From assembly GCF_964355755.1 (NCBI RefSeq), contig NC_092675.1, positions 24,406,412-24,470,411 of the forward strand: a stretch of DNA of 64,000 nucleotides. The letters are read 5' to 3'. The position numbers and the translations under genes are program-made. The notes under the pieces are model-generated. The model made no database searches and was not told where the DNA came from. It saw nothing but the letters and a program-made list of their open reading frames with translations. Below are positions 1-63,080 of this stretch, in pieces (the first letter of the stretch is position 1; the number at the start of each line of letters is the position of its first letter). The DNA is from Antedon mediterranea. Lineage: Eukaryota > Echinodermata > Crinoidea > Comatulida > Antedonidae.

Positions 1-3000
1 CAGTAATTGATTCACCGACCGTAGCAGCAACACATACAGTACCGTTAACATTAGTGGTATGCATTTCAATTATTCCTGATGACTTCTCCCACACGCTAAA
101 ACAAAACAGGTAAACAAACAATAGTAAATGTAATAGAAAATAATATCATCAATGAACATACAGCCTCAATACTTAATTTCCATAAAATATAGGAGAATAA
201 CTTTGATTTGTAACCAAACATATTATTTAAAACTTACGTTATGTTTGTAAAAATAACTGGTTCAAGACACTGGTCATCACCACAAGTTTGAATATGAACA
301 CATCCCATTGCATACGGTGTAGTAAATGATTCTGGTAATTGTGTTGTTTGTTCCCGACATTGGAGAACAAGAGCAACTTCGCTACAAGTTCCTACCACAC
401 AATAACCGGTGGTTTCCGGAATGACTGTTGCATTAGCAATTGATCCATCCTCACATAACGCAGAAACAGTAATTGATTCACCGACCGTAGCAGCAACACA
501 TAAAGTACCGTTAACATTAGTGGTATGCATTTCAATTATTCCTGATGACTTCTCCAACACGCTAAAACAAAACAGGTACACAAACAATAGTATATGTAAT
601 AGAAAATAATAACATCAATAAAAATACGGCATCAATACTTAATTTCTATCAATTATGGAAGAATAACTTTGATTTGTTACCGAAACATATTATTTAAAAC
701 TTACGTTATGTTTGTATAAATAACTGGTTCAAGACACTGGTCATCACCACAAGTTTGAATATGAACACATCCCATTGCATACGGTGTAGTAAATGTTTCT
801 GGTAATTGTGTTGTTTGTTCCCGACATTGGAGAATAAGAGCAACTTCGCTACAAGTTCCTACTTGACAATCAGCGGTAGTTTCCGGAGTGACTGTTGCAT
901 TGGCAATTGATCCATCTTCACATAACGCAGAAACAGTAATTGATTCACCGACCGTAGCAGCAACACATACAGTACCGTTAACATTAGTGGTATGCATTTC
1001 AATTATTCCTGATGACTTCTCCCACACGCTAAAACAAAACAGGTAAACAAACAATAGTAAATGTAATAGAAAATAATATCATCAATGAACATACAGCCTC
1101 AATACTTAATTTCCATAAAATATAGGAGAATAACTTTGATTTGTAACCAAACATATTATTTAAAACTTACGTTATGTTTGTAAAAATAACTGGTTCAAGA
1201 CACTGGTCATCACCACAAGTTTGAATATGAACACATCCCATTGCATACGGTGTAGTAAATGATTCTGGTAATTGTGTTGTTTGTTCCCGACATTGGAGAA
1301 TAAGAGCAACTTCGCTACAAGTTCCTACTTGACAATCACCGGTGGTTTCCGGAATGACTGTTGCATTAGCAATTGATCCATCCTCACATAACGCAGAAAC
1401 AGTAATTGATTCACCGACCGTAGCAGCAACACATACAGTACCGTTAACATTAGTGGTATGCATTTCAATTATTCCTGATGACATCTCCAACACGCTAAAA
1501 CAAAACAGGTAAACAAACAATAGTATATGTAATAGAAAATAATATCATCAATAAAAATACGGCATCAATACTTAATTTCTATCAATTATGGAAGAATAAC
1601 TTTGATTTGTTACCGAAACATATTATTTAAAACTTACGTTATGTTTGTATAAATAACTGGTTCAAGACACTGGTCGTCAGCACAAGTTTGAATATGAACA
1701 CAACCCATTGCATACGGTGTAGTAAATTTTTCTGGTAATTGTGTTGTTTGTTCCCGACATTGGAGAATAAGAGCAACTTCGCTACAAGTTCCTATTTGAC
1801 AATCACCGGTAGTTTCCGGAGTTACTGTTGCATTGGCAATTGATCCATCTTCACATAACGCAGAAACAGTAATTGATTCACCGACCGTAGCAGCAACACA
1901 TACAGTACCGTTAACATTAGTGGTATGCATTTCAATTATTCCTGATGCCTTCTCCCACACGCTAAAACAAAACAGGTAAACAAACAATAGTAAATGTAAT
2001 AGAAAATAATATCATCAATGAACATACAGCCTCAATACTTAATTTCCATAAAATATAGGAGAATAACTTTGATTTGTAACCAAACATATTATTTAAAACT
2101 TACGTTATGTTTGTAAAAATAACTGGTTCAAGACACTGGTCATCACCACAAGTTTGAATATGAACACATCCCATTGCATACGGTGTGGTAAATGATTCTG
2201 GTAATTGTGTTGTTTGTTCCCGACATTGGAGAATAAGAGCAACTTCGCTACAAGTTCCTACCACACAATAACCGGTGGTTTCCGGAATGACTGTTGCATT
2301 AGCAATTGATCCATCCTCACATAACGCAGAAACAGTAATTGATTCACCGACCGTAGCAGCAACACATACAGTACCGTTAACATTAGTGGTATGCATTTCA
2401 ATTATTCCTGATGACTTCTCGAACACGCTAAAACAAAACAGGTAAACAAACAATAGTAAATGTAATAGAAAATAATATCATCAATAAAAATACGGCATCA
2501 ATACTTAATTTCTATCAATTATGGAAGAATAACTTTGATTTGTTACCGAAACATATTATTTAAAACTTACGTTATGTTTGTATAAATAACTGGTTCAAGA
2601 CACTGGTCGTCAGCACAAGTTTGAATATGAACACAACCCATTGCATACGGTGTAGTAAATTTTTCTGGTAATTGTGTTGTTTGTTCCCGACATTGGAGAA
2701 TAAGAGCAACTTCGCTACAAGTTCCTATTTGACAATCACCGGTAGTTTCTGGAGTGACTGTTGCATTGGCAATTGATCCATCTTCACATAACGCAGAAAC
2801 AGTAATTGATTCACCGACCGTAGCAGCAACACATACAGTACCGTTAACATTAGTGGTATGCATTTCAATTATTCCTGATGACTTCTCCCACACGCTAAAC
2901 AAAACAGGTAAACAAACAATAGTAAATGTAATAGAAAATAATATCATCAATGAACATACAGCCTCAATACTTAATTTCCATAAAATATAGGAGAATAACT

Positions 3001-6000
3001 TTGATTTGTAACCAAACATATTATTTAAAACTTACGTTATGTTTGTAAAAATAACTGGTTCAAGACACTGGTCATCACCACAAGTTTGAATATGAACACA
3101 TCCCATTGCATACGGTGTAGTAAATGATTCTGGTAATTGTGTTGTTTGTTCCCGACATTGGAGAACAAGAGCAACTTCGCTACAAGTTCCTACCACACAA
3201 TAACCGGTGGTTTCCGGAATGACTGTTGCATTAGCAATTGATCCATACTCACATAACGCAGAAACAGTAATTGATTCACCGACCGTAGCAGCAACACATA
3301 AAGTACCGTTAACATTAGTGGTATGCATTTCAATTATTCCTGATGACTTCTCCAACACGCTAAAACAAAACAGGTAAACAAACAATAGTATATGTAATAG
3401 AAAATAATATCATCAATAAAAATACGGCATCAATACTTAATTTCTATCAATTATGGAAGAATAAATTTGATTTGTTACCGAAACATATTATTTAAAACTT
3501 ACGTTATGTTTGTATAAATAACTGGTTCAAGACACTGGTCGTCAGCACAAGTTTGAATATGAACACAACCCATTGCATACGGTGTAGTAAATTTTTCTGG
3601 TAATTGTGTTGTTTGTTCCCGACATTGGAGAATAAGAGCAACTTCGCTACAGGTTCCTACTTGACAATCACCGGTGGTTTCCGGAGTGACTGTTGCATTG
3701 GCAATTGATCCATCTTCACATAACGCAGAAACAGTAATTGATTCACCGACCGTAGCAGCAACACATACAGTACCGTTAACATTAGTGGTATGCAATTCAA
3801 TAATTCCTGATGAATTCTCCAACACGCTAAAACAAAACAGGTAAACAAACAAAAGTAAATTTAACAGAAAATAATATCATCAATGAACATACAGCCTCAA
3901 TACTTAATTTCCATAAAATATGGGAGAATAACTTTGGTTTGTAACCGAAACATATTATTTAAAACTTACGTTATGTTTGTAAAAATAACTGGTTCAAGAC
4001 ACTGGTCGTCAGCACAAGTTTGAATATGAACACAACCCATTGCATACGGTGTAGTAAATATTTCTGGTAATTGTGTTGTTTGTTCCCGACATTGGAGAAT
4101 AAGAGCAACTTCGCTACAAGTTCCTACTTGACAATCACCGGTGGTTTCCGGAGTGACTGTTGCATTGGCAATTGATCCATCTTCACATAACGCAGAAACA
4201 GTAATTGATTCACCGATCGTAGCAGCAACACATACAGTACCGTTAACATAAGTGGTATGCATTTCAATTATTCCTGATGACTTCTCCAACACGCTAAAAC
4301 AAAACAGGTAAACAAACAATAGTAAATTTAACAGAAAATAATATCATCAATGAACATACAGCCTCAATACTTAATTTCCATAAAATATGGGAGAATAACT
4401 CTGATTTGTAACCAAACATATTATTTAAAACTTACGTTATGTTTGTAAAAATAACTGGTTCAAGACATTGGTCATCACCACAAGTTTGAATATGAACACA
4501 ACCCATTGCATACGGTGTAGTAAATGTTTCTGGTAATTGTGTTGTTTGTTCCCGACATTGGAGAACAAGAGCAACTTCGCTACAAGTTCCTACTTGACAA
4601 TCACCGGTGGTTTCCAGAGTGACTGTTGCATTGGCAATTGATCCATCTTCACATAACGCAGAAACAGTAATTGAATCACCGATCGTAGCAGCAACACATA
4701 CAGTACCGTTAACATTAGTGGTATGCATTTCAATTATTCCTGATGACTTCTCCAACACGCTAAAACAAAAGAGGTAAACAAACAATAGTAAATTTAACAG
4801 AAAATAATATCATCAATGAACATACAGCCTCAATACTTAATTTCCATAAAATATGGGAGAATAACTCTCATTTGTAACCAAACATATTATTTAAAACTTA
4901 CGTTATGTTTGTAAAAATAACTGGTTCAAGACATTGGTCATCACCACAAGTTTGAATATGAACACAACCCATTGCATACGGTGTAGTAAATGTTTCTGGT
5001 AATTGTGTTGTTTGTTCCCGACATTGGAGAATAAGAGCAACTTCGCTACAAGTTCCTACTTGACAATCACCGGTGGTTTCCGGAGTGACTGTTGCATTGG
5101 CAATTGATCCATCTTCACATAACGCAGAAACAATAATTGATTCACCGACCGTAGCAGCAACACATACAGTACCGTTAACATTAGTGGTATGCATTTCAAT
5201 TATTCCTGATGACTTCTCCAACACGCTAAAACAAAACAGGTAAACAAACAATAGTAAATGTAATAGAAAATAATATCATCAATGAAAATACGGCATCAAT
5301 ACTTAATTTCTATCAATTATGGAAGAATAACTTTGATTTGTTACCGAAACATATTATTTAAAACTTACGTTATGTTTGTAAAAATAACTGGTTCAAGACA
5401 CTGGTCGTCAGCACAAGTTTGAATATGAACACAACCCATTACATACGGTGTAGTAAATATTTCTGGTAATTGTGTTGTTTGTTCCCGACATTGGAGAATA
5501 AGAGCAACTTCGCTACAAGTTCCTAAAACACAATCACTGGTGGTTTCCGGAATGACTGTTGCATTAGCAATTGAGCCATCCTCACATAACGCCGAAATAG
5601 TAATTGATTCACCGACCGTAGCAGCAACACATACAGTACCGTTAACATTAGTGGTATGCATTTCAATTATTCCTGATGACATCTCCAACACGCTAAAACA
5701 AAACAGGTAAACAAACAATAGTAAATGTAATAGAAAATAATATCATCAATGAACATACAGCCTCAATACTTAATTTCCATAAAATATGGGAGAATAACTT
5801 TGATTTGTAACCAAACATATTATTTAAAACTTACGTTATGTTTGTAAAAATAACTGGTTCAAGACATTGGTCATCACCACAAGTTTGAATATGAACACAT
5901 CCCATTGCATACGGTGTAGTAAATGATTCTGGTAATTGTGTTGTTTGTTCCCGACATTGGAGAATAAGAGCAACTTCGCTACAAGTTCCTACCACACAAT

Positions 6001-9000
6001 CACCGGTGGTTTCCGGAATGACTGTTGCATTAGCAATTGATCCATCCTCACATAACGCAGAAACAGTAATTGATTCACCGACCGTAGCAGCAACACATAC
6101 AGTACCGTTAACATTAGTGGTATGCATTTCAATTATTCCTGATGACTTCTCCAACACGCTAAAACAAAACAGGTAAACAAACAATAGTAAATTTAACAGA
6201 AAATAATATCATCAATGAACATACAGCCTCAATACTTAATTTCCATAAAATATGGGAGAATAACTCTGATTTGTAACCAAACATATTATTTAAAACTTAC
6301 GTTATGTTTGTAAAAATAACTGGTTCAAGACATTGGTCATCACCACAAGTTTGAATATGAACACAACCCATTGCATACGGTGTAGTAAATGTTTCTGGTA
6401 ATTGTGTTGTTTGTTCCCGACATTGGAGAATAAGAGCAACTTCGCTACAAGTTCCTACTTGACAATCACCGGTGGTTTCCAGAGTGACTGTTGCATTGGC
6501 AATTGATCCATCTTCACATAACGCAGAAACAGTAATTGATTCACCGATCGTAGCAGCAACACATACAGTACCGTTAACATTAGTGGTATGCATTTCAATT
6601 ATTCCTGATGACTTCTCCAACACGCTAAAACAAAAGAGGTAAACAAACAATAGTAAATTTAACAGAAAATAATATCATCAATGAACATACAGCCTCAATA
6701 CTTAATTTCCATAAAATATGGGAGAATAACTCTCATTTGTAACCAAACATATTATTTAAAACTTACGTTATGTTTGTAAAAATAACTGGTTCAAGACATT
6801 GGTCATCACCACAAGTTTGCATATGAACACAACCCATTGCATACGGTGTAGTAAATGTTTCTGGTAATTGTGTTGTTTGTTCCCGACATTGGAGAATAAG
6901 AGCAACTTCGCTACAAGTTCCTACTTGACAATCACCGGTGGTTTCCGGAGTGACTGTTGCATTGGCAATTGATCCATCTTCACATAACGCAGAAACAATA
7001 ATTGATTCACCGACCGTAGCAGCAACACATACAGTACCGTTAACATTAGTGGTATGCATTTCAATTATTCCTAATGACTTCTCCAACACGCTAAAACAAA
7101 ACAGGTAAACAAACAATAGTAAATGTAATAGAAAATAATATCATCAATGAAAATACGGCATCAATACTTAATTTCTATCAATTATGGAAGAATAACTTTG
7201 ATTTGTTACCGAAACATATTATTTAAAACTTACGTTATGTTTGTAAAAATAACTGGTTCAAGACACTGGTCGTCAGCACAAGTTTGAATATGAACACAAC
7301 CCATTACATACGGTGTAGTAAATATTTCTGGTAATTGTGTTGTTTGTTCCCGACATTGGAGAATAAGAGCAACTTCGCTACAAGTTCCTAAAACACAATC
7401 ACTGGTGGTTTCCGGAATGACTGTTGCATTAGCAATTGAGCCATCCTCACATAACGCCGAAATAGTAATTGATTCACCGACCGTAGCAGCAACACATACA
7501 GTACCGTTAACATTAGTGGTATGCATTTCAATTATTCCTGATGACATCTCCAACACGCTAAAACAAAACAGGTAAACAAACAATAGTAAATGTAATAGAA
7601 AATAATATCATCAATGAACATACAGCCTCAATACTTAATTTCCATAAAATATGGGAGAATAACTTTGATTTGTAACCAAACATATTATTTAAAACTTACG
7701 TTATGTTTGTAAAAATAACTGGTTCAAGACATTGGTCATCACCACAAGTTTGAATATGAACACATCCCATTGCATACGGTGTAGTAAATGATTCTGGTAA
7801 TTGTGTTGTTTGTTCCCGACATTGGAGAATAAGAGCAACTTCGCTACAAGTTCCTACCACACAATCACCGGTGGTTTCCGGAATGACTGTTGCATTAGCA
7901 ATTGATCCATCCTCACATAACGCAGAAACAGTAATTGATTCACCGACCGTAGCAGCAACACATACAGTACCGTTAACATTAGTGGTATGCATTTCAATTA
8001 TTCCTGATGACTTCTCCAACACGCTAAAACAAAACAGGTAAACAAACAATAGTAAATTTAACAGAAAATAATATCATCAATGAACATACAGCCTCAATAC
8101 TTCATTTCCATAAATATGGAAGAATAACTTTGGTTTGTAACCGAAACATATTATTAAAAACTTACGTTATGTTTGAAAAAATAACTGGTTCAAGACACTG
8201 GTCGTCAGCACAAGTTTGAATATGAACACAACCCATTGCATACGGTGTAGTAAATGTTTCTGGTAATTGTGTTGTTTGTTCCCGACATTGGAGAATAAGA
8301 GCAACTTCGCTACAGGTTCCTACTTGACAATCACCGGTGGTTTCCGGAGTGACTGTTGCATTGGCAATTGATCCATCTTCACATAACGCAGAAACAGTAA
8401 TTGATTCACCGACCGTAGCAGCAACACATACAGTACCGTTAACATTAGTGGTATGCAATTCAATAATTCCTGATGAATTCTCCAACACGCTAAAACAAAA
8501 CAGGTAAACAAACAAAAGTAAATTTAACAGAAAATAATATCATCAATGAACATACAGCCTCAATACTTAATTTCCATAAAATATGGGAGAATAACTTTGG
8601 TTTGTAACCGAAACATATTATTTAAAACTTACGTTATGTTTGTAAAAATAACTGGTTCAAGACACTGGTCGTCAACACAAGTTTGAATATGAACACAACC
8701 CATTGCATACGGTGTAGTAAATGTTTCTGGTAATTGTGTTGTTTGTTCCCGACATTGGAGAATAAGAGCAACTTCGCTACAAGTTCCTACCACACAATCA
8801 CCGGTGGTTTCCGGAATGACTGTTGCATTAGCAATTGAGCCATCCTCACATAACGCCGAAATAGTAATTGATTCACCGACCGTAGCAGCAACACATACAG
8901 TACCGTTAACATTAGTGGTATGCATTTCAATTATTCCTGATGACATCTCCAACACGCTAAAACAAAACAGGTAAACAAACAATAGTAAATGTAATAGAAA

Positions 9001-12000
9001 ATAATATCATCAATGAACATACAGCCTCAATACTTAATTTCCATAAAATATGGGAGAATAACTTTGATTTGTAACCAAACATATTATTTAAAACTTACGT
9101 TATGTTTGTAAAAATAACTGGTTCAAGACATTGGTCATCACCACAAGTTTGAATATGAACACATCCCATTGCATACGGTGTAGTAAATGATTCTGGTAAT
9201 TGTGTTGTTTGTTCCCGACATTGGAGAATAAGAGCAACTTCGCTACAAGTTCCTACCACACAATCACCGGTGGTTTCCGGAATGACTGTTGCATTAGCAA
9301 TTGATCCATCCTCACATAACGCAGAAACAGTAATTGATTCACCGACCGTAGCAGCAATACATACAGTTCCGTTAACATTAGTGGTATGCATTTCAATTAT
9401 TCCTGATGACTTCTCCAACACGCTAAAACAAAACAGGTAAACAAACAATAGTAAATGTAATAGAAAATAATATCATCAATGAAAATACGGCATCAATACT
9501 TAATTTCTATCAATTATGGAAGAATAACTTTAATTTGTTACCGAAACATATTATTTAAAACTTACGTTATGTTTTTAAAAATAACTGGTTCAAGACACTG
9601 GTCGTCAGCACAAGTTTGAATATGAACACAACCCATTACATACGGTGTAGTAAATGTTTCTGGTAATTGTGTTGTTTGTTCCCGACATTGGAGAATAAGA
9701 GCAACTTCGCTACAAGTTCCTACTTGACAATCACCGGTGGTTTCCAGAGTGACTGTTGCATTGGCAATTGATCCATCTTCACATAACGCAGAAACAGTAA
9801 TTGATTCACCGATCGTAGCAGCAACACATACAGTACCGTTAACATTAGTGGTATGCATTTCAATTATTCCTGATGACTTCTCCAACACGCTAAAACAAAA
9901 CAGGTAAACAAACAATAGTAAATTTAACAGAAAATAATATCATCAATGAACATACAGCCTCAATACTTAATTTCCATAAAATATGGGAGAATAACTCTGA
10001 TTTGTAACCAAACATATTATTTAAAACTTACGTTATGTTTGTAAAAATAACTGGTTCAAGACATTGGTCATCACCACAAGTTTGAATATGAACACAACCC
10101 ATTGCATACGGTGTAGTAAATGTTTCTGGTAATTGTGTTGTTTGTTCCCGACATTGGAGAATAAGAGCAACTTCGCTACAAGTTCCTACTTGACAATCAC
10201 CGGTGGTTTCCGGAGTGACTGTTGCATTGGCAGTTGATCCATCTTCACATAACGCAGAAACAGTAATTGATTCACCGACCGTAGCAGCAACACATACAGT
10301 ACCATTAACATTAGTGGTATGCAATTCAATTATTCCTGATGAATTCTCCAACACGCTAAAACAAAACAGGTAAACAAACAATAGTAAATTTAACAGAAAA
10401 TAATATCATCAATGAACATACAGCCTCAATACTTAATTTCCATAAAATATGGGAGAATAACTTTGGTTTGTAACCGAAACATATTATTTAAAACTTACGT
10501 TATGTTTGTAAAAATAACTGGTTCAAGACACTGGTCGTCAGCACAAGTTTGAATATGAACACAACCCATTGCATACGGTGTAGTAAATATTTCTGGTAAT
10601 TGTGTTGTTTGTTCCCGACATTGGAGAATAAGAGCAACTTCGCTACAAGTTCCTACTTGACAATCACCGGTGGTTTCCGGAGTGACTGTTGCATTGGCAA
10701 TTGATCCATCTTCACATAACGCAGAAACAGTAATTAATTCACCGATCGTAGCAGCAACACATACAGTACCGTTAACATTAGTGGTATGCATTTCAATTAT
10801 TCCTGATGACTTCTCCAACACGCTAAAACAAAACAGGTAAACAAACAATAGTAAATTTAACAGAAAATAATATCATCAATGAACATACAGCCTCAATACT
10901 TAATTTCCATAAAATATGGGAGAATAACTTTGGTTTGTAACCGAAACATATTATTTAAAACTTACGTTATGTTTGTAAAAATAACTGGTTCAAGACACTG
11001 GTCGTCAGCACAAGTTTGAATATGAACACAACCCATTGCATACGGTGTAGTAACAATTTCTGGTAATTGTGTTGTTTGTTCCCGACATTGGAGAATAAGA
11101 GCAACTTCGCTACAAGTTCCTACTTGACAATCACCGGTGGTTTCCGGAGTGACTGTTGCATTGGCAATTGATCCATCTTCACATAACGCAGAAACAGTAA
11201 TTGATTCACCGATCGTAGCAGCAACACATACAGTACCGTTAACATTAGTGGTATGCATTTCAATTATTCCTGATGACTTCTCCAACACGCTAAAACAAAA
11301 CAGGTAAACAAACAATAGTAAATTTAACAGAAAATAATATCATCAATGAACATACAGCCTCAATACTTAATTTCCATAAAATATGGGAGAATAACTCTGA
11401 TTTGTAACCGAAACATATTATTTAAAACTTACGTTATGTTTGTAAAAATAACTGGTTCAAGACATTGGTCATCACCACAAGTTTGAATATTAACACAACC
11501 CATTGCATACGGTGTAGTAAATGTTTCTGGTAATTGTGTTGTTTGTTCCCGACATTGGAGAATAACAGCAACTTCGCTACAAGTTCCTACTTGACAATCA
11601 CCGGTGGTTTCCAGAGTGACTGTTGCATTGGCAATTGATCCATCTTCACATAACGCAGAAACAGTAATTGATTCACCGATCGTAGCAGCAACACATACAG
11701 TACCGTTAACATTAGTGGTATGCATTTCAATTATTCCTGATGACTTCTCCCACACGCTAAAACAAAAGAGGTAAACAAACAATAGTAAATTTAACAGAAA
11801 ATAATATCATCAATGAACATACAGCCTCAATACTTAATTTCCATAAAATATGGGAGAATAACTCTGATTTGTAACCAAACATATTATTTAAAACTTACGT
11901 TATGTTTGTAAAAATAACTGGTTCAAGACATTGGTCATCACCACAAGTTTGAATATGAACACAACCCATTGCATACGGTGTAGTAAATGTTTCTGGTAAT

Positions 12001-15000: not shown

Positions 15001-16889
15001 TTCCTGATGACTTCTCCAACACGCTAAAACAAAACCGGTAAACAAACAATAGTAAATTTAACAGAAAATAATATCATCAATGAACATACAACCTCAATAC
15101 TTAATTTCCATAAAATATGGGAGAATAACTTTGATTTGTAACCAAACATAGTATTTAAAACTTACGTTATGTTTGTAAAAATAACTGGTTCAAGACATTG
15201 GTCATCACCACAAGTTTGAATATGAACACATCCCATTGCATACGGTGTAGTAAATGATTCTGGTAATTGTGTTGTTTCTTCCCGACATTGGAGAATAAGA
15301 GCAACTTCGCTACAAGTTCCTACAACACAATCACCGATGGTTTCCGGAATGACTGTTGCATTAGCAATTGAGCCATCCTCACATAACGCAGAAATAGTAA
15401 TTGATTCACCGACCGTAGCAGCAACACATACAGTACCGTTAACATTAGTGGTATGCATTTCAATTATTCCTGATGACTTCTCCAACACGCTAAAACAAAA
15501 CAGGTAAACAAACAATAGTAAATTTAACAGAAAATAATATCATCAATGAACATACAGCCTCAATACTTCATTTCCATGAAATATGGAAGAATAACTTTGG
15601 TTTGTAACCGAAACATATTATTTAAAACTTACGTTATGTTTGAAAAAATAACTGGTTCAAGACACTGGTCGTCAGCACAAGTTTGAATATGAACACAACC
15701 CATTGCATACGGTGTAGTAAATGATTCTGGTAATTGTGTTGTTTGTTCCCGACATTGGAGAATAAGAGCAACTTCGCTACAAGTTCCTACCACACAATCA
15801 CCGGTGGTTTCCGGAATGACTGTTGCATTAGCAATTGAGCCATCCTCACATAACGCAGAAATAGTAATTGATTCACCGACCGTAGCAGCAACACATACAG
15901 TACCGTTAACATTAGTGGTATGCATTTCAATTATTCCTGATGACATCTCCAACACGCTAAAACAAAACAGGTAAACAAACAATAGTAAATGTAATAGAAA
16001 ATAATATAATCAATGAACATACAGCCTCAATACTTAATTTCCATAAAATATGGGAGAATAACTTTGATTTGTAACCAAACATATTATTTAAAACTTACGT
16101 TATGTTTTTAAAAATAACTGGTTCAAGACATTGGTCATCACCACAAGTTTGAATATGAACACATCCCATTGCATACGGTGTAGTAAATGATTCTGGTAAT
16201 TGTGTTGTTTGTTCCCGACATTGGAGAATAAGAGCAACTTCGCTACAAGTTCCTACCACACAATCACCGGTGGTTTCCGGAATGACTGTTGCATTAGCAA
16301 TTGATCCATCCTCACATAACGCAGAAACAGTAATTGATTCACCGACCGTAGCAGCAACACATACAGTACCGTTAACATTAGTGGTGTGCATTTCAATTAT
16401 TCCTGATGACATCTCCAACACGCTAAAACAAAACAGGTAAACAAACAATAGTATATGTAATAGAAAATAATATCATCAATGAAAATACGGCATCAATACT
16501 TAATTTCTATCAATTATGGAAGAATAACTTTAATTTGTTACCGAAACATATTATTTAAAACTTACGTTATGTTTTTAAAAATAACTGGTTCAAGACACTG
16601 GTCGTCAGCACAAGTTTGAATATGAACACAACCCATTGCATACGGTGTAGTAAACGTTTCTGGTAATTGTGTTGTTTGTTCCCGACATTGGAGAATAAGA
16701 GCAACTTCGCTACAAGTTCCTACTTGACAATCACCGGTGGTTTCCGGAGTGACTGTTGCATTGGCAATTGATCCATCTTCACATAACGCAGAAACAGTAA
16801 TTGATTCACCGACCGTAGCAGCAACACATACAGTACCGTTAACATTAGTGGTATGCATTTCAATTATTCCTGATGACTTCTCCAACACG
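1..16889 (-). CDS. Distal tandem array: 36 complete module exons plus one partial
   Basis: Exons: 1-95 (partial), 238-561, 705-1028, 1171-1494, 1638-1961, 2104-2427, 2571-2894, 3036-3359, 3503-3826, 3970-4293, 4436-4759, 4902-5225, 5369-5692, 5835-6158, 6301-6624, 6767-7090, 7234-7557, 7700-8023, 8166-8489, 8633-8956, 9099-9422, 9566-9889, 10032-10355, 10499-10822, 10966-11289, 11433-11756, 11899-12222, 12366-12689, 12833-13156, 13300-13623, 13767-14090, 14233-14556, 14700-15023, 15166-15489, 15633-15956, 16099-16422, 16566-16889. Each module has eight cysteines in the order VCV, ALC, DC, GTC, QC, GC, TC, QC and normally three sequons (NGT, NAT, NIT). No copy has a frameshift or stop. Introns of about 142 bp are nearly as conserved as the exons. 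Because all exons are symmetric, gain or loss of units keeps the frame. Confidence 0.92.
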
Positions 16890-19800
16890 CTAAAACAAAA
16901 CAGGTAAACAAACAATAGTAAATTTAACAGAAAATAATATCATCAATGAACATACAGCCTCAATACTTAATTTCCATAAAATATGGGAGAATAACTTTGA
17001 TTAGTAACCGAACATATTATTTAAAACTTACGTTATGTTTGTAAAAATAACTGGTTCAAGACACTGGTCGTCAGCACAAGTTTGAATATGAACACAACCC
17101 ATTGCATACGGAGTAGTAAATGTTTCTGGTAATTGTGTTGTTTGTTCCCGACATTGGAGAATAAGAGCAACTTCGCTACAAGTTCCTACAACACAATCAC
17201 CGGTGGTTTCCGGAGTGAGTGTTGCATTGGCAATTGATCCATCTTCACATAACGCAGAAACAGTTAGAGATTCACCGACCGTAGCAGCAACACATACTGT
17301 ACTGTTTTCATTAGTGGTGTACTTTTCAATTCTACCTGATGAAATCTCCAGCACACTAAAATATAGGTTACAAAATAAACATTTTTAATTGCATTTTTTT
17401 CAAATACAACTCCATTATTATAAATATACAATAGTGAGAAAGAGTAATCTTTTTTTTTTATTAATAATTCGATTATTTGAAACTTACCTTATGTTTCTGA
17501 ACATAACTGGTTCAAGGCATTTTTCGTCACCACAAGTTTTTATACGAACACAACCCATTTCATATGGTGTAGTAAATGATTCTGGTAATTGTGTTGTTTG
17601 TACACGACATTGCAGGATAAGAGCAACACTGCTACAAGTTCCTACTTGACAATTACCAGTGCTTTCCGGAGTTACTGTTGCATTTGCCATTGATCCATCT
17701 TCACATAACGCAGAAACAGTTACGGATTCACCGACCGTAGCAGCAACACATACTGTACCATTTTCATTAGTGGTGTACTTTTCAATTCTACCTGATGAAA
17801 TGTCCAGCACACTAAAAAATAGGTTACAAAATAAACATTTTTAATTGCATTTTTTTCAAATACAACTTCATTATTATAAATATACAATAGTGAGAAAGAG
17901 TAATCTTTTTTTTAATTAATAATTCGATTATTTGAAACTTACCTTATGTTTCTGAACATAACTGGCTCAAGGCACTTTTCGTCACCACAAGTTTTTATAC
18001 GAACACAACCCATTTCATATGGTGTAGTAAATGATTCTGGTAATTGTGTTGTTTGTAAACGACATTGGAGGATAAGAGCAACACTGCTACAAGTTCCTAC
18101 TTGACAATCACCAGTGCTTTCCGGAGTTACAGTTGCATTTGCCACTGATCCATCTTCACATAACGCAAAAACAGTTACGGATTCACCGACCGTAGCAGCA
18201 ACACATACTGTACCGTTTTCATTACTAGTGTACTTTTCAATTCTACCTGATGAAATCTCCAGCACACTAAAATATAGGTTACAAAATAAACATTTTTAAT
18301 TGCATTTTCTTAAATACAACTCCATTATTATAAATATACAATATTGAGAAAGAGTAAATTTTTTTTTAATTAATAATTCGATTATTTGAAACTTACCTTA
18401 TGTTTCTGAACATAACTAGCTCAAGGCACTTTTCGTCACCACAAGTTTTTATACGAACACAACCCATTTCATATGGTGTAGTAAATGATTGTGGTAATTG
18501 TGTGGTTTGTACCCGACATTGGAGGATAAGAGCAACACTGCTACAAGTTCCTACTTGACAATCACCAGTGCTTTCTGGAGTTATAGTTGCATTTGCCATT
18601 GATCTATCTTCACATAACGCAGAAACAGTTAGAGATTCACCGACAGTAGCAGCAACACATACTGTACCGTTTTCATTAGTGGTGTATTTTTCGATTCTAC
18701 CTGATGAATTTTCCAGCACACTAAATATAGGTAACAAAATAAACATTTTTAATTGCATTTTTTTCAAATACAACTCTATTATTATAAATATATAATAATA
18801 AGAGTAAAAATTGTTTTATTAATAATTCGATTATTTGAAACTTACCTTATGTTTCTGAACATAACTGGTTCAAGGCATTTTTCGTCACCACAAGTTTTTA
18901 TACGAACACAACCCATTGCATACGGTGTAGTAAATGATTCTGGTAATTGTGTTGTTTGTACACGACATTGGAGGATAAGAGCAACACTGCTACAAGTTCC
19001 TACTTGACAATCACCAGTGCTTTCCGGAGTTACAGTTGCATTTGCCATTGATCCATCTTCACATAACGCAGAAACAGTTACGGATTCATCGACCGTAGCA
19101 GCAACACATACTGTACCGTTTTCATTAGTGGTGTACTTTTGAATTCTACCTGATGAAATCTCCAGTACACTGAAATGTAGGTTACAGAATAATCACTTTT
19201 AATAGCATTTTTTCAAATACAACTCCATTATTATAAATATATAATAGTGAGAAAGAGTAATTTTTTTTTAATTAATAATTCGATTATTTTAAACTTACCT
19301 TATGTTTCTGAACATAACTGGTTCAAGGCACTTTTCGTCACCACAAGTTTTTATACGAACACAACCCATTTCATATGGTGTAGTAAATGATTCTGGTAAT
19401 TGTGTTGTTTGTACACGACATTGGAGGATAAGAGCAACACTGCTACAAGTTCCTACTTGACAATTACCAGTGCTTTCCGGAGTTACAGTTGCATTTGCCA
19501 TTGATCCATCTTCACATAACGCAGAAACAGTTACGGATTCACCGACCGTAGCAGCAACACATACAGTACCGTTATCATTAGTGGTGTACATTTCAATTTT
19601 TCCAGATGAAATATCCAGCACACTAACACAGGTTAAATAACAAGAATATTTGTATTGTACATTGTTTAAACAATAAGTCTATCTTGATTATATTATTCTA
19701 ATGAAATCTCCAACAAACTAAACAGAACTTGTAACACATTATTAAAGTATTAAAACGTAAAACAATCTAATCTGCATAGTATTTAATGTGCAATGAAATT

Positions 19801-22800
19801 TAGTTGTTCTGTCGAAAACCAAAAATTGTTATGAGAAACTCTCCACATGTTAAATGTGTAATGGTGGTGATTGCGCTAAAACTAATAATGGGTGTATTAA
19901 ACTTACTTGACATCGTAATCGGGGACATAAGTTAGACATTTGTCATCACTACAAGTCATTATACGAACACACCCCGATTGGGTACAGTTAAATTCATCAC
20001 TTCCGTCACTACAGTCCATTTTTCCATTACATAATGTATCATATCCAATACATTCACCACTTCCACACATAAAACCATTACATGTAAGACATTTCATAAG
20101 AAAAAGAGCTTTAGAACATTCTGCATCTTGGTTGGTTGTATTCAATTGTATAGTAATGGTTTCATTATTGATGGTGCAACGGGTTGTCACATTTACTTCA
20201 GAGTTTGTCTTGACAGTGAAAACTACTTTTCCACTCGCATCAGTGAAATTTGAGTATCCATATGAATAACTATGTCCGACAATTCTGGAGAAAAAAAAAA
20301 CAACCGAAAATTAATTATGGTTATATGTCTGCTGGATATATGGCTATGACAAAACGTTCGAACCTATGACTATGGCAACAATGTGAAAAAAAGAAATACA
20401 CAGTCTTAGTATATGACCGGCATTGAATCATCCAACTAACTTTTAATCATGTGTGTATGGTTATTTTTATTCCATTGACATTAATATAAAGAAGCCGATA
20501 CAAGAGGTGGTTTATTTTATAGATAGGGTTCTTTTTAGTCAAATATAATTGTAGTTTACGTCTATAATATTACTGTTGAATGCGTATAAAAAACAAAATG
20601 GTAAATTTTATACGGCGGACACTGCAGGTTGACAGGTTGCTCGAATGTGATCAGTCAAAGCCTCATATCGCGCATGTGGTTTCTCACTGTTTAACAAAAC
20701 TAAACGCCCAAACCGAAATTGCAGTATTCGCATATAAAGACATTGCACACTCAATAACGTAATAATATTTCACTAAAACATTGATTGAATATTATAACCT
20801 ACAATCCTCAAAGACAAAAACCTACTTAGGTATGTTAATTACAATCATAATAAATACTTACTCAACGTAATGGTCAGGAACAGGTTGCGTACAATCATAA
20901 TCTAAACACACAGATACATTAAGACAAGTTTGCTCATCAGAAACAATTCCTCCCTGCCACAGTGACAAATGTGGGAGTGATGCTACCCAGTACAGCTCAC
21001 CAGAAAACACCTCAATATGTCCATAGTCTTGTGGTTTCCATGCACCTAATATGTATTACAGTAAAACCTGTTTTAGTGTACTATAATTTGTTGTTTATTT
21101 ATTGTTCTTTGTATGTTTCATTACATGACAATAAAATGACAATATAATTTACTCTGAATCTTCATTATCATAAATAATAAGTGTTGTTAGTTTATCAATA
21201 ATAGGATAATAAAATGTTAAATATTTTTCCCCCCTGTACACTAAATTTCAGCTTAATATTTAATTTAACAAAGTAAAAAACACACATAATGACAAGTCCT
21301 TTTTTGTTATGTTAAAATACCTTTTCCACTTTAGCGAATGACAATATATTATCAAGTCGGCGCTGGATGAGGTCGTGCAGTATATTGAGTTACTGTGTTT
21401 AGTGTATCTAAGACTATATATAAATTTACGTAAAGGCAAAATTCGGTAAATCGCGTGTTATTTCTAAAATATTTACTCGATGGTATATAAAGTTGGTTAG
21501 AATCTCGGTACTGATTTTAACCACCTGATTTAACCCTTTTTACTAATTAAATTTAGTTAGATAATTAGTTATTGACAATTAAAACGAATTTAGGTTCAAC
21601 GATTTGCCCCCAATAGGGGTGTTTTCTGATCGTGGTATACACTGTCTAATGGATATCCTCATGAAAAAATACCTGCACACAATAATACGAGGATACTTCG
21701 CATTTTCCTATCTCCTCCTACGATAATTGTTTTCAATAGCTGAAAACCGGTTGAACAGCTCGAGTACAGTATCATAATGTTGAAGACAGACCGAGAATCT
21801 CGGTACTGATTTTAACCTGATGTAACCCTGTTTACTAATTCAATTTAGTTAGATAATAAGTTATTGACAATTAAACGAATTTAGGTTCAACGATTTGAAC
21901 AGCTCGAGTACAGTATCATAATGTTGAAGACAGGCCGATTTTCTTTAAAAAATAATATTTTGATAGATTTAATATACGTTTATACAAATGTATTGATTTG
22001 CAATGAATGGAACATTCCCAATTATTTGGTTTAACCATGCTTGCATACATCCATAGTTTAACACAAGTAAGTAAATTTATGGGCCCTTGGAGAATAAACA
22101 TAAACAGTATTGTAATGCTATACAATACTATAGGTATTAACCACGTTTGATCATCATAGTCATATATACTTTATTGTCCATTTAAAAAACAGAAATGTGA
22201 TTTGAAAACTGGCAAAATACAAAAATATAAAATACAATTTACAAAAACACACACAAAAAGTTAAGAGGCTAAAAATTGTTAAAATTAGATAAAAATTATT
22301 ATTATTTAATTATATTATATGATTTATTATTATATTGAACTAACGATGATTTAAAGTTTATATAAAAGCATTAAAACTATAAAAATAAACAAAAGCGGTT
22401 ACATTTTACCTTTGTACTCTGGAGTTATATAAGTGTATAGCATTAGGTACAAACGAGCACCTAAACCGTTTTGTTTTGGTATTAAGTGCACGTAGTCTTA
22501 TCGCCATTTAAATCGCATTTAATTTCTTATTGTGTGTGTTTGTACCGCTAGATATAATATAAACAAATATACTAATAAACTTTATTACTGTGAGTGTGGG
22601 TAGCCCCTACTTTTAGATTATAAACACATAACAATAATTATAATAATTTATTACTGACAGTTGCTTCTCATCTTTTGTATAAATTAATAATTACAAAAAA
22701 ATATAAACGTCGTAGTGGTGTATCGTTACACGTACTTTACTATTTCAATCGACTATGACAGTGACAATTTTAACATAGTTATTAAATCGGAAATGTTTTA

Positions 22801-25800
22801 CTCTATTTAGTGGTATATTATTTATAAGCCTATAAAAAAATATGTCGTTACTTATAAAAATAAATATAAATAATAAAGAAATATAAAGAATAATTTATTA
22901 TAAAGAATATATTAAAAAAGTGTTCCTCTTTGTATCCCTCATCCCTAACCCTCAACAATAATGTTAGATAGAAAACAAAAATTGGGTTTGTTAAATAAAT
23001 CCAAATCAAACATTTGGACTCATTTTGTGACAAGTTTCTCTTTTGGAAGTAATTTCCAGGGTGCTAATTTTGGTTGACTACATAAATTATTGTGTCTATT
23101 TATTTGTTTATGTAAACGACAATGTTTTATAGTCATGCGTTACGTACATTTGAAATCGCCAGTTCTTTTACGCTGAAATTACTATGTAGGCCTATTCGAG
23201 AACCATCTGTGGACATGATCTAGTAATACATAATTGAAGCTAAAGTAATTTTGGTAAATAATTATTTCTAGATTGTACATGAATTGGATAAAGTATAATA
23301 TACGGAAATCAGCAAGCCATGACGTTTACTTTCATTATTCATGGTAGTTGTAATATTGTGATAAGTGGTGTCACTTTAATGGGCCATCATTAGTAAAACT
23401 ACCTTATGTAAGTCAGGATTCAGAACCTTTTTTCTGCGAAACCAACATACATAACCATACATGTATAGCGTTCTGATTTTTTTACTGATAATGATACTCG
23501 TCGTGAAGGTAGCGATAAATCATCGCTTGTTTGGGTTGTTCCATACCTTTTCTGGCATTCTACAATTTGTTTCTTGGCTCGTTTTACTTCAAAATCCGAG
23601 TCGATGGCAATTTGCGTTATTTTTAGTTCATATATTTCGGCCTTAACTATGGATAAGTTATAGGCCTATGCTCTGTTTCTATAACTTGGTTCACGTAAAG
23701 ATTTTATTTGTTCTTCTTTGTTTATTATACATCTTGTCCATGATTTTAGTTTTGAGTCGGGTGGGGGGGGGGGGAGTGGTAGTTTAATTAAATTTAAATT
23801 AATTAAGATTTCAGAGATTTAATTTCCGTTCTGAGATTTATATTTTCAGTTCCAATAGAGAGTTTCAGATTTTTTAATTATCGCAAATTTTCAACACCAC
23901 TCACGTTAGACAGAACGCTTACAGTTTAAAAGTAGCGATTGTGAACAAAACAACGATTACGTAACATGAACAAAAGGCACGAGTGGAGAAAGCACTGAAC
24001 TCAGTAGACCGTGAAGAATGTTAGAAATCTCTCAGTGAAAAAAAAACCAATATATTTGTTAGCCCAGAAAATAAACGCTAATTACAGGGCAAAGGTACAG
24101 TCAGAGTCGGTACAGTTCGTTATAGTGGTGGTCTATTTTAAGTGACTTAGCTTAGAAAAACAAAGGTTGTTTCTACTCTCCAGTATTTGAAAATCATGCC
24201 TTTATTTCCCCATCAAGCTAAGATAAAGTTATTCCTGAATTTACCTGTGCAGTTGTGGTTACCTAATTGATAGATTTGAGCACAAAATTGAGATATCAGT
24301 TCAAATGTACAGTGTACTTGTGTTAGACTGCCTTCGGTATTAACGGCATCAAGGGGGAAGACAGGATGTACCATGACAAGCTAACTTTGGTTAGGTAGGC
24401 CTAAGTAAAATAATTGTAATTAATAAATGAAACATTTGCTTACCGGTTAACTTCTCGTAATAAAAGGATTGGACGACATCACCTTGTTTTGCTGAACCAG
24501 GTAGTATAGGAACAGAAACAATAATTGATTCATTTAAATTAACCTCCTGACCAGTGTTTTTGTCTATCAACGTCAGATCAAAACGGGTTATCGGCTGAAT
24601 GAGTTTACCTGTAGAGAAATTGTACAGTTAGATAAAACATACAAATCAAATAGATGACAGCGTATGTTTTTAGGGCAATATAAAATAAAAAAGATGACAG
24701 TTTTTATATTTCGTTACAAAGTCTTCATTTTGTCCTCTTTCGAGTTCCCCGTGTTGTCCTGTTTTTTTTTATATTTCAATGTTATGGGCTGCCTCTCACG
24801 AGCTTTGCTTTTCTCATTTACAGCTGAGTGCACTGGGAGTTGTCGGGAATTGAACCCGGGTCTGTGTGGTAGGGTGGCCAGTTCCTTTCCACGCCGCCTT
24901 TTTCTCCCTAGTATTTTCAACTAGGTACTCATTTACAGCTGAGTGGACTGGGAGTTGTCGGGAATTGAACCCGGGTCTATCTGTATGACAGTCAAGTGTC
25001 CTAACCACTCGGCTATCCAACTCCAACTCTTTAAATAATAAAATACAAATACAAACAAAATAACATTACAATATACTAATAGTGACGGATACAAACACTA
25101 ATAAATAATAAATTCTCTTATATTATGAGGAAATAGCAAAACAGAGTGATACATGTTATGATTACAATATCTATATGAAGAAATAGTAAAACGAACATAT
25201 TATTACAAGTGATACAGGACAGTATTATATGGACAAATAGTTAACTATTTAATTATTATAATTTATTATTATTAAATTATTCTCTCCATTCAATCACACA
25301 AGCCCACAAGAGAACCACGTTTTATCACGGTATCTAAATATTCCCACAAAAACAAGTTAGTAAGCTTTCTTCGAGAGTTATATAAATCATATATTATGTA
25401 TATAATTATATAATTTTTACAATATATTGTAATAATATGTATTTCAACAAAATGATTAACACAAGCTCTTACAGTTGTAGTTTGATTGTTAATGCCGATT
25501 AAAGAATTTCGTTTACGTGGGACTCAAACGCTATGCTCTGATTCTACTGTATTCCAAAGAAGAAGAAACTAAATATATTCAATGAAATCTAAAAGCGTAG
25601 CCAATGCCAAATCGAATCTATTATCCTTAAAGTTTAACAGTCAAGGTAAATCTAATGAATCTAATAGATTAGTCTACACCTACTTAAAAAAAAATAAAAA
25701 CCTTTCATTTTAGGTATACAATAGTTGTTTAAAGGTATTTAAACAGTTCGACTCACCTTTCGGATCAACAGACGTAGGTATGTTTAATAACTGGGTTTCA

Positions 25801-26896
25801 TCACCAATGTTAGTAAAACAAACTGAAATGTCCACTGTATCGTTACCAAGGTTATCTAAACTTCCTGAAAATGTAAGGTAGTTTATAATTTATTCAAGAT
25901 GAATTTTGCAAACTTTGTTATATATTTTGTTATATATTATAAATAACAAACTAAAACAAAACAGAACATATTTTCGAAATGTATGGTCCTACAAATAATA
26001 CAATAATGTTCAGTGCATTCATCTTCTGAAACCAATAACTTTCTTTTATGAATCATCATAACAAACTTTATGAACCTAATTAAAAATTAATCATGTGAGC
26101 ATGATAGTAATTATATATATAATAATATAGGCCTACATTAATTATATAATAATTTTTTTTAATCAAAGATTCATTAATTCTCTCATTTATCTTCTCATTT
26201 ATCTTTGAACGCAAGATGCTATTACTTTAACTAATATCGCTAATGATAATAAATATTACTGATTAATATACTGGGGCAAATTCATAATTATGTGGTATGG
26301 ACGCGAGATTAATATGGACCTCTAGTTGGCCAACAAATTACAGAACCAGTACAATGTCTGGAAGTATGTAAAGTGAAAATGTATTAACTGACCAGGATTG
26401 ATATGAAAATTTGCAGTAGGGGTGGAGCTGGGAGTACTTAGCCGTGTTTGGAGGGAGAGAGAAGAACATGTTTAACCAGGAAAAGATATCATTTGTGAGC
26501 GACACTTGAAAACTCTATATCACCTTTTTAAGTATGCAAACTTACCAGGTGTAAATAAAATTGACATTTGTCCTCCCGACGGCATATCAATTTCCACCGA
26601 CGTACTCAAAGTAGTATCTACTTTTATTGTTGAGACAATCGTTAGTGGTATCAGCTCAAATTCAAAGGTTGTGTACGATGAAGTATGTTCTGGAGTTTGC
26701 CAAATTTTACTTGCTTCCAAAAAACCATGTACGTCTATGGTTATTGTGCCACTTGAATTCCCTGGTAAAAGAAAAACGTTTTCCTGTCCATCGTAGATTA
26801 TAATCAGACCACCACTTGTATGTTGAACAACTGTTACAGACGGGTTGTTTAGGTCAGCCCAACGTATGTTCGTTGGCCTTAAATAGACATAAGAAT
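1..26896 (-). CDS. Giant secreted multi-module protein (3' part), LDLa plus 43 tandem eight-cysteine modules
   Basis: Partial gene read from right to left, running off the left edge. Exons in transcript order are 26896-26546, 25864-25757, 24608-24444, 21045-20862, 20284-19907, then 42 exons of 324 nt from 19622 down to 238, and a partial exon 95-1. Every junction has GT-AG (minus strand) and the reading frame is continuous across all of them: phase 1 for the first three junctions, phase 2 from 20862 onward. About 4,960 residues are visible. There is no transmembrane segment in the visible part, and cysteines and N-glycosylation sequons are abundant, so an extracellular protein is inferred. 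The first exon found begins mid-codon, so at least one upstream exon (signal peptide) is missing from this model. I do not recognise the gene; an adhesive, mucus, matrix or immune role would be guesswork. Confidence 0.85.
12833..13156 (-). CDS. Distal module exon with weakened splice donor
   Basis: This copy has GTTAGT at its donor (complement of 12827-12832) where every other array copy I compared has GTAAGT. It is still a GT donor but deviates at the usually conserved position +3. If it is skipped, the transcript stays in frame. If it is not recognised, reading continues into the intron to a stop near 12760. It also carries CWEQ in place of CREQ. Confidence 0.8.
17032..17355 (-). CDS. Chimeric module exon at the proximal/distal border
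   Basis: A 324-nt phase 2-2 exon whose 5' half is proximal-type (SSGRIEKYTTNEN, GESLTVSALC) and whose 3' half is distal-type (GTCSEVALILQCREQ, PYAMGCVHIQTCADDQC, ending NIT). The switch occurs roughly between 17200 and 17260. The intron on its upstream side is proximal-like, and the intron on its downstream side is distal-like. The exon looks functional: eight cysteines, intact splice sites. Confidence 0.88.
17488..19622 (-). CDS. Five proximal-type tandem module exons
   Basis: Exons 19299-19622, 18846-19169, 18397-18720, 17943-18266 and 17488-17811, each exactly 324 nt and phase 2-2, with donor GTAAGT. Spacing is 449-455 bp, shorter than in the distal array. They share features absent from the distal copies: SSGRIEKYTTNENGT or a close variant, TPESTG, CSSVALILQC, PYEMGCVRIKTCGDEKCLEPVMF, and the ending NIR, which removes the third sequon. 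All eight cysteines are kept in each. Two single-residue departures: the copy at 18846-19169 has ATVDES where the others have ATVGES, and that copy also has PYAMGC (distal-like) instead of PYEMGC. Confidence 0.88.
19907..20284 (-). CDS. Giant gene, LDLa-containing exon (apparent founder of the module family)
   Basis: A 378-nt exon, acceptor TTTCTCCAG, donor GTAAGT, phase 2 at both ends. The central part is a canonical LDL-receptor class A repeat (CGSGECIGYDTLC followed by DCSDGSDEFNC), with the Ca-binding DCxDGSDE motif intact. The flanks match the tandem modules downstream. The N-terminal flank has a V-x-V-x-x-x-C...N-x-T...C...L-x-x-x-C pattern. The C-terminal flank SGCVRIMTCSDDKCL parallels MGCVRIKTCGDEKCL of the modules. 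It therefore reads as a module with an LDLa domain in its middle. It splices AA/T to the first tandem module. Confidence 0.9.
20285..20861. other. Intron of giant gene
   Basis: A 577-bp intron between the LDLa exon and the CILP/FAM171-like exon. A 60-codon plus-strand open frame at 20580-20762 has no recognisable features and is probably chance. Nothing else supported. Confidence 0.6.
20862..21045 (-). CDS. Giant gene, fourth visible exon; end of CILP/FAM171-like segment
   Basis: A 184-nt exon entered at phase 1 and left at phase 2, donor GTAAGT. It begins AWKPQDYGHIEV and includes LYWVASLPHLSLWQGG, the 'H-L-S-x-W' end of the signature that starts in the preceding exon. It then carries three cysteines in TCLNVSVCLDYDC. 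The last codon is split GA/A and joins to IVGHSY in the LDLa exon. The phase change here marks the border between the unique N-terminal region and the symmetric phase-2 module exons. Confidence 0.75.
21046..24443. other. Large intron of giant gene, with repeats
   Basis: A 3.4-kb intron bounded by exons that join in phase 1. It contains a degenerate copy of a dispersed Helitron-like repeat (about 21413-22140), a retroelement-tail-like TGACAATAAAATGACAATA near 21127-21145, and a poly-G run near 23761-23774. The remainder is AT-rich without recognisable coding sequence. Confidence 0.6.
21413..22140 (+). mobile_element. Helitron-like non-autonomous element, degenerate copy
   Basis: This stretch matches the element at 31074-31740 over most of its length, including CTATATATAAATTTACGTAA at the left, the ACTCGATGGTATATAAAGTT block and the ATAGGGGTGTTTTC block. 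The left end lacks the TC dinucleotide and the right end lacks CTAG. It has an internal duplication: the GAATCTCGGTACTGATTTTAACC block at about 21500 recurs at about 21791, along with neighbouring sequence. It encodes no protein. Confidence 0.6.
24444..24608 (-). CDS. Giant gene, third visible exon; start of CILP/FAM171-like segment
   Basis: A 165-nt exon, acceptor CTCTACAG and donor GTAAGC, phase 1 at both ends. It contains ESIIVSVPILPGSAKQGDVV followed by SFYYEKLTG at the junction with the next exon. The pattern of a beta-strand 'V-P-L-P', a spacer, an aromatic '-F/Y-Y-x-x-x-x-G-x-W' and later 'H-L-S-x-W' recalls the ectodomain of cartilage intermediate layer protein and FAM171. This is pattern memory only, so the family call is tentative. 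Confidence 0.7.
24815..24935 (-). mobile_element. Second, partial SINE copy
   Basis: 24815-24873 repeats the tail and right half of the tRNA-like head of the adjacent SINE (ctgagtg-actgggagttgtcgggaattgaacccgggtct pattern). It then diverges into a different block (GGTGGCCAGTTCC...). Probably a chimeric or nested SINE insertion; orientation is inferred from the adjacent copy. Confidence 0.55.
24951..25024 (-). mobile_element. tRNA-derived SINE head
   Basis: Minus-strand sequence with a 7-bp acceptor-like stem (GGAGTTG pairing with CAACTCC), an A-box (TAGCCGAGTGG) and a B-box (GGTTCAATTCC), as in a tRNA gene. The anticodon arm does not fold well, so a working tRNA is unlikely. The sequence continues leftwards as CAGTCCACTCAGCTGTAAATGAG-like tail (about 24928-24950), which recurs in the neighbouring copy. 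That pattern is typical of a SINE. Confidence 0.7.
25757..25864 (-). CDS. Giant gene, second visible exon (36 codons)
   Basis: A 108-nt exon, acceptor TTTTCAG and donor GTGAGT, phase 1 at both ends. It encodes a short stretch with one cysteine (DISVCFTNIGDETQLLNIP). Both neighbours join in frame, giving TPG before it and DPKG after it. The frame continuity over three consecutive phase-1 junctions is the main evidence that this short exon is real. Confidence 0.75.
25865..26545. other. Intron of giant gene
   Basis: A 681-bp AT-rich intron between two in-frame exons. I see no gene or recognisable element. Confidence 0.6.
26546..26896 (-). CDS. Giant gene, most upstream exon identified (beta-rich region)
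   Basis: A 351-nt exon encoding about 117 residues, preceded by TTTTGCAG and followed by GTAAGT. It contains no cysteine. It is rich in Val, Ile, Thr and Ser with alternating hydrophobic residues (for example SGTITIDVHGF and STIKVDTTLSTSVEIDMP), which suggests beta-sandwich folding. It ends in the first base of a glycine codon completed by the next exon (TP-G-SLDNL). I cannot assign a family. Its start is mid-codon, so further exons lie upstream, within or beyond 26897-29500. Confidence 0.75.
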
Positions 26897-62624: not shown

Positions 62625-63080
62625 TAGTGGTGTGGATAATTGTTTTTCCCACTAAATCATAATATCTATATTACGCCAGCCTCATTAGAAATTATGTTAC
62701 AAATAAATACACCAGAATGACTTAAATATTAAAAATAGATTATGAATTTATGAATGGTAATAGGAAAAAATAATAAAAATGATAGATTGCACATTAAATG
62801 CAGAAAAAAAATGTTAAATAGTTTATGGATGATGAGTAATGGATACTGATAATAGTGGTGTGGATAATTGTTTTTCCCACTAAATCATAATATCTATATT
62901 ACGCCAGCCTCATTAGAAATTATGTTACAAATAAATACACCAGAATGACTTAAATATTAAAAATAGATTATGAATTTATGAATGGTAATAGGAAAAAATA
63001 ATAAAAATGATAGATTGCACATTAAATGCAGAAAAAAAATGTTAAATAGTTTATGGATGATGAGTAATGGATACTGATAA
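62625..63080. repeat. Exact 228-bp tandem duplication
   Basis: 62625-62852 is repeated as 62853-63080. I found no difference between the copies, including internal poly-A runs. It is non-coding and begins TAGTGGTGTGGATAATTG. Confidence 0.9.

Follow-up and report, generated by a model that had tools for sequence, protein, structure and literature searches.

What kind of protein is encoded by a run of dozens of exons that share one length and one phase? The question is raised by a stretch of 64,000 nucleotides of the crinoid Antedon mediterranea (hereafter the window), which corresponds to C6:24406412-24470411 (C6 being contig NC_092675.1) in the genome assembly used for searches, of 354 Mb and 18 contigs. 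Features are given in window positions; coordinates below zero lie to the left of the window, a coordinate c converting to C6:24406411 + c. We assign a probability of roughly 0.68 to the reading that the array forms the outer arm of a single giant glycoprotein, a type I membrane protein of the MUC4 type, as predicted from the genomic sequence. The best reading of the locus would be a tethered, mucin-like surface protein, heavily glycosylated and lengthened by exon duplication.

The window contains 42 complete module exons on the minus strand, from 238-561 to 19299-19622, each exactly 324 nt long, with one leading and two trailing bases (phase 2-2), an AG upstream and a GT downstream. TRF resolves positions 1-19630 into a single array, 42.2 copies of a period of 467. 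Module exons 1-6 with their introns occupy 17032-19622, where exons 1-5 are diverged by 22-25% from the core and exon 6 is transitional (7%), while exons 7-42 with their introns (238-16889) form a homogeneous core with a mean exon difference of about 4-5%. Exon 43 (1-95) is cut by the window edge, and the gene continues to the left, where exons 44-91 lie on the same strand at -371 to -22557; in the assembly the array runs on in register and gap-free up to module 91 (C6:24383854), spanning 42 kb in all. The initial annotation, which had counted 42 consecutive stop-free exons plus one truncated at the edge and had expected a higher true number, is borne out on each of these points. Across the whole array, 87 exons measure 324 nt and four measure 321 nt, all 91 are free of stops, GT and AG are intact in all 90 internal introns, and the donor reads GTAAGT in 87 of them.

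Such regularity could be the product of an assembly artefact that has inflated the copy number, or of a dead satellite, a reading with which the identity of some unit pairs (modules 26-27 and 30-31) is consistent. However, 83 of the 91 exon sequences are distinct, which argues against a copying error in the assembly, no N gaps occur in the genome stretches fetched across the array, and a non-functional repeat fits poorly with the lack of any stop or broken splice site and with the retention of the cysteines, so that we regard this explanation as extremely improbable. Identical neighbouring blocks, found at lags of 3, 4 and 8, look like traces of recent unequal exchange. The eight cysteines, also recognized in the first reading of the window, are present in 91, 91, 91, 91, 91, 91, 90 and 89 of the 91 modules, in turn, and few residues of the modules are variable. 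Among 132 distinct changes in the core, about five stops would be expected without constraint and none was seen (P ~0.007). Within the core dN/dS was 0.52, against 0.36 among modules 1-6 and 0.37 when these were compared with the core; a cruder tally of distinct derived states in the core gave 0.76, so constraint within the young core is mild. Judged by the absence of stops and by dN/dS of 0.36-0.52, the array is not a chance open reading.

The exon had been equated with the module unit, an equation that does not survive alignment. In 14 modules drawn from the giant gene and three paralogues, the eight cysteines align across the intron position, and they do so only when the tail of an exon is read on into the beginning of the following one; the exon is therefore not the structural domain, and the fold crosses the intron. 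The intron site is the same in all paralogues, after the first strand of the fold. Each exon is therefore predicted to cover the greater part of one fold and, after an 18-residue linker, the opening strand of the fold that follows. The linker contains 37% Thr+Ser+Pro, a modest proportion for a mucin domain. Sequons, two or three per module, occur in all modules, in agreement with the N-glycosylation proposed at the outset.

A Pfam search with the 14-row module alignment returned no member over its curated cut-off, the best score (E 0.0038) belonging to an unrelated family, and no SEA match was found in the modules. Up to E 5, a profile search of PDB gave only two matches, a transthyretin-like protein (E 0.49) and a collagen adhesin with CnaB-like repeats (E 1.1), neither of them significant and both sharing one fold. 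The module has no significant match in Pfam or PDB, and the claim that no named family exists holds for the module, which no Pfam model covers, but not for the chassis of the protein, which is of the known MUC4 type. AlphaFold gave no usable model of the exon-frame module (14 window sequences; pLDDT 44), so the fold call rests on the alignment of cysteines and motifs together with the sub-significant PDB matches. On this basis, the module is likely a transthyretin-like sandwich. It shares the pattern T(D/N)xxGxv(c) with transthyretin-like, CnaB and carboxypeptidase regulatory-like sandwiches, the fold of both PDB matches, whereas such sandwiches are without the four presumed disulphides of the module. 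Two cysteines kept by all other rows of the alignment are both missing from one diverged module, module 0, and this paired absence suggests that C21 and C54 of the exon are bonded to each other.

The flanks of the array, where exons were placed by splice-site scores and frame, bear on whether it is a free polymer. To its right within the window, also on the minus strand, lies the putative N-terminal head. Candidate coding exon 1 (28359-28428) would encode the signal peptide MKRLILSFFLFVSTHTSINA-RET, ends in phase 1 and opens the stop-free model; it is the sole match in a scan of 26.9-37.2 kb for an ATG with a hydrophobic stretch and a donor in the required phase. It is followed by the N-terminal region in coding exon 2 (26546-26896, with 26896 as its first base), which is beta-rich and has a homologous exon in paralogues, and in coding exon 3 (25757-25864), and by a FAM171-like region in coding exon 4 (24444-24608), all three in phase 1-1. 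The FAM171-like region matches PF10577 with E 1.4e-6; the match of 28.2 bits, under the curated cut-off of 31.2, covers about one third of the model and pairs residues ~158-238 of the signal-less N-terminal model with PF10577 positions 169-249. Coding exon 5 (20862-21045) ends the FAM171-like region, supplies the first strand of module 0 and switches from phase 1 to phase 2. Module 0 itself (19907-20284, phase 2-2) is a module exon into which an LDL-receptor class A domain (PF00057, E 6.9e-10) is inserted; it is 25% identical to the amplified modules.

Several repeats accompany this region. A dispersed repeat with at least 40 copies genome-wide at ~95-97% identity is found at 21414-22099 and 31075-31641, one copy lying in an intron of the giant gene. 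Its signal-peptide-like ORF, at ~21.7 kb and 31.4 kb, was considered as a first exon and rejected as a decoy, as it sits in this repeat. Two nearby copies of a tRNA-like stretch (GGGAATTGAACCCGGGTCT...) at 24817-25065 are probably tRNA-derived repeat fragments; ARAGORN and Rfam reported nothing in the window.

To the left of the window, the minus strand continues with a terminal module exon that has no linker (-23831 to -24066), followed by two HYR, two LDLa, two sushi and two EGF_CA domains (-24328 to -28352) and by a NIDO-AMOP-VWD (GDPH)-C8-3_MUC4 block (-29213 to -35217). Next come an Ig/cadherin-like region with ~17 EGFs (-36727 to -47152), SEA-like exons (-47654 to -48125), a single Thr/Glu-rich exon of 3,489 nt with 22-aa repeats (-48501 to -51989) and, at -52393 to -55837, a SEA-like region, an EGF, a transmembrane helix, a tail and the stop. 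Pfam supports the two HYR domains (E 9.5e-25), NIDO (PF06119, 92.6 bits against a cut-off of 25, E 4.1e-26), AMOP (PF03782, 39.1 bits against 25, E 9.9e-10), VWD (PF00094, 43 bits, over its cut-off, E 7.6e-11) and the MUC4-type C8-3 domain (PF23263, 43 bits, over its cut-off, E 2.7e-11); matches in the predicted protein also include two LDLa, sushi and EGF_CA. The SEA-like region has a counterpart in a C8 paralogue that scores 18.4 bits for SEA, below cut-off. The GDPH of the VWD domain lies near residue 11,185. The only strong hydrophobic peak in the protein (hydropathy 3.2, near residue 13,922) is followed by KRR and a short tail, a clear prediction of a single C-terminal transmembrane helix. 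At least 21 stretches in the genome match the MUC4-type C8-3 domain, and by domain content the nearest relative of the C-terminal half is MUC4.

Taken together, these exons give a model that is stop-free from window position 28428 to -55837, with 143 exons and 42,090 nt including the stop codon (at C6:24350574), or 14,030 codons. The predicted protein has 14,030 aa, 1.50 MDa before glycosylation and 329 sequons, and the array accounts for 9,824 aa of it (70%). Its domains follow in the order FAM171-like head, LDLa-bearing module, 91 modules, terminal module, HYR, LDLa, sushi, EGF, NIDO-AMOP-VWD(GDPH)-C8-3_MUC4, ~17 EGFs, Thr-rich repeat exon, SEA-like region, EGF, transmembrane helix and short tail. 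On the 5' side of the array, exons are 1-1 up to the switch at 21045-20862, module 0 and the 91 modules are 2-2, the terminal module returns from phase 2 to phase 1, and the exons 3' of it are mostly 1-1 with a few phase-0 joins, mainly in NIDO, VWD and SEA-like parts. The 3' half of the model includes weak splice choices around -26728, -33543, -37917 to -38427, and -52520. From this continuity we infer that the array and its flanking domains form one gene and one transcript. The ~1.3 kb between the last module and the next exon might instead separate two adjacent genes, a 5' array gene and a MUC4-like gene, wrongly merged in the model; but the 2-to-1 switch of the terminal module exon is exactly the one required, the array has neither a stop codon nor an exit of its own, and a paralogue on C6 keeps the same order over the same junction, all of which makes such a merger highly improbable.

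That paralogue belongs to a small family. A search of the genome with the module recovered a second array, of six exons and a terminal module, at C6:24176275-24180391 (C6b), and single matches at C6:24285563 and C8:23152055; a search with the LDLa module added a locus at C8:23235444. The four paralogues carry 0, 0, 2 and 6 extra module copies, compared with 91 in the giant gene. C6b, the nearest, repeats the exon order of the giant gene, with FAM171-like, LDLa module, six modules, terminal module, HYR, LDLa, sushi, EGF, NIDO, AMOP and VWD with GDPH. The other C6 paralogue (C6c) has the LDLa module, a terminal module with a long Thr-rich run, and then LDLa, sushi and NIDO. On C8, one paralogue (C8a) has two extra modules, the LDLa module, a terminal module with a Thr-rich run and a SEA-like region, and the other (C8b) is similar, with no extra module in the stretch read. 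In a module tree, whose support is rough and which includes long branches, the giant-gene modules group together (93/95), as do those of C6b (92/98), both apart from the LDLa modules, and the two C8a modules are placed with the LDLa type. The separate groups of giant and C6b modules imply that each array grew independently; so, as far as this rough tree with its long branches can be followed, arrays in the family would have grown at least three times, and the same family also lengthens through Thr-rich repeats.

Clustered paralogues with very different copy numbers, and LDLa, sushi and CUB domains nearby, would also suit a polymorphic recognition receptor, for immunity or allorecognition, in which individuals differ in the number or the sequence of their modules. 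The modules, however, are homogenised and not hypervariable, with a mean exon difference of ~4%, dN/dS below 1 and a paucity of variable residues, and we consider a recognition role improbable. Further upstream, both C6 paralogues show exons for LDLa, CUB and trypsin; none was seen in the 10-19 kb upstream of the giant gene. Upstream of one C6 paralogue (C6:24185434-24187171), near its trypsin, CUB and LDLa exons, there is also a long run of SSSSDY/SSSSDD repeats.

Among known proteins, MUC4 has NIDO, AMOP, VWD with GDPH, C8-3_MUC4, EGF and a transmembrane helix in the same order, as well as a long repetitive N-terminal extracellular region, which in MUC4 is one large PTS repeat exon, whereas here it consists of 91 folded, cysteine-rich, one-exon modules. 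Relative to MUC4, the giant protein adds HYR, LDLa and sushi domains and a FAM171-like head, its EGFs are far more numerous, and a Thr-rich exon stands apart, close to the membrane. That 3.5-kb Thr/Glu-rich repeat exon and the Thr-rich linkers are candidate O-glycosylated PTS features. SUSD2, mesh and coral mucin-like proteins have the same NIDO-AMOP-VWD core block, and we know of no comparable module array in them. The ectodomain of FAM171A/B resembles the N-terminal region through PF10577, but the score is below cut-off, the FAM171 cytoplasmic part is absent here and the architecture differs. MUC16, in which NIDO, AMOP and VWD are not known to occur, is the nearest working parallel, among membrane mucins, to an array of folded domains. 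Its tandem repeats alternate a folded domain with a Thr/Ser/Pro linker, as here, although that domain is an SEA with 2 Cys rather than an 8-Cys module, and it has 19 copies in a long-read model of MUC16/CA125 (63 in an older one) against 91 (PMC10829539). The open-access literature yielded no match for the architecture or for giant arrays of identical exons. The module is unnamed and the chassis of a known kind; the protein would be a striking extreme of surface-coat proteins such as human MUC4.

These parts suggest how the tethered protein might work. Each module would fold as a small beta-sandwich with eight cysteines, with an 18-residue Thr-rich linker after it, and 91 of them would form a long, disulphide-stabilised rod or brush, N-glycosylated and probably O-glycosylated, that would keep the FAM171-like/LDLa head far from the cell and could serve as a barrier or coat. 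The EGF, Thr-rich, SEA-like and transmembrane parts would tether the protein, and the NIDO-AMOP-VWD block probably self-cleaves at GDPH yet stays assembled. As cleavage regions of GDPH and SEA-like type separate the array from the membrane, the array could alternatively be freed by such cleavage, or by transcripts ending before the transmembrane exon, as a soluble polymer acting as a secreted matrix, mucus or adhesive protein, and papers on the coral skeletal matrix do discuss NIDO/AMOP/VWD mucin-like proteins. The model, however, ends in a transmembrane helix and tail, and GDPH cleavage in VWD domains is reported to be autocatalytic and to stabilise the domain, not to dismantle it (PMC10880436), so that the two halves are expected to remain together; we therefore hold secretion to be unlikely. 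Of the polymer-like extracellular protein first envisaged, the giant extracellular glycoprotein of symmetric exons with a mucus or surface-coat character stands, and the free polymer gives way to a protein with a FAM171-like/LDLa head and a MUC4-type half bearing a transmembrane helix.

The exon structure also offers a route by which such an arm could change length. As the exon is symmetric (2-2) and the introns lie inside the fold, unequal exchange at any intron adds or removes whole periods with frame and fold intact. The gene design is instructive in this respect, since the exon that duplicates is one period of the fold, offset from its borders, and a change in copy number leaves every fold whole. 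Whole-period exchange probably produced the copy numbers of the family (0, 0, 2, 6 and 91). More tentatively, and with the odds against it, this undescribed module family could act as a length-adjustable molecular ruler on the cell surface, with unequal exchange changing exon number between individuals or species, such that the exon count would directly set the thickness of the coat or the reach of the head and animals would differ in count (91 here, 0-6 in paralogues). Five members within one genome constitute a natural series for relating exon duplication to protein length and length to the cell coat. If transcribed as one unit, the protein would rank with the largest membrane mucin-like proteins on record and would contain what is, to our knowledge, an extreme series of near-identical folded modules encoded by one exon each.

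Other features were recorded elsewhere in the window. Coiled-coil exons on the minus strand at 42917-44128, of which 42917-43270 matches the TPH domain (PF13868, E 2.3e-7), probably belong to a cilia-related gene. A minus-strand ORF at 53556-54005 has a Cys-rich part with sub-threshold, Ly6/three-finger-like character, together with a Gly-Ala repeat and a hydrophobic tail, and the plus strand is also open across the Gly-Ala repeat. Among simple repeats, a GC-rich minisatellite with a 16/46-base unit (AAGTCGCCCCATCACA) lies at 45551-45721, a tandem array of a 31-base unit that holds the palindrome GCGCAATTTcAAATTGCGC at 46138-46282, and an exact tandem duplication of a 228-base unit, in two copies that are 100% identical, at 62625-63082.
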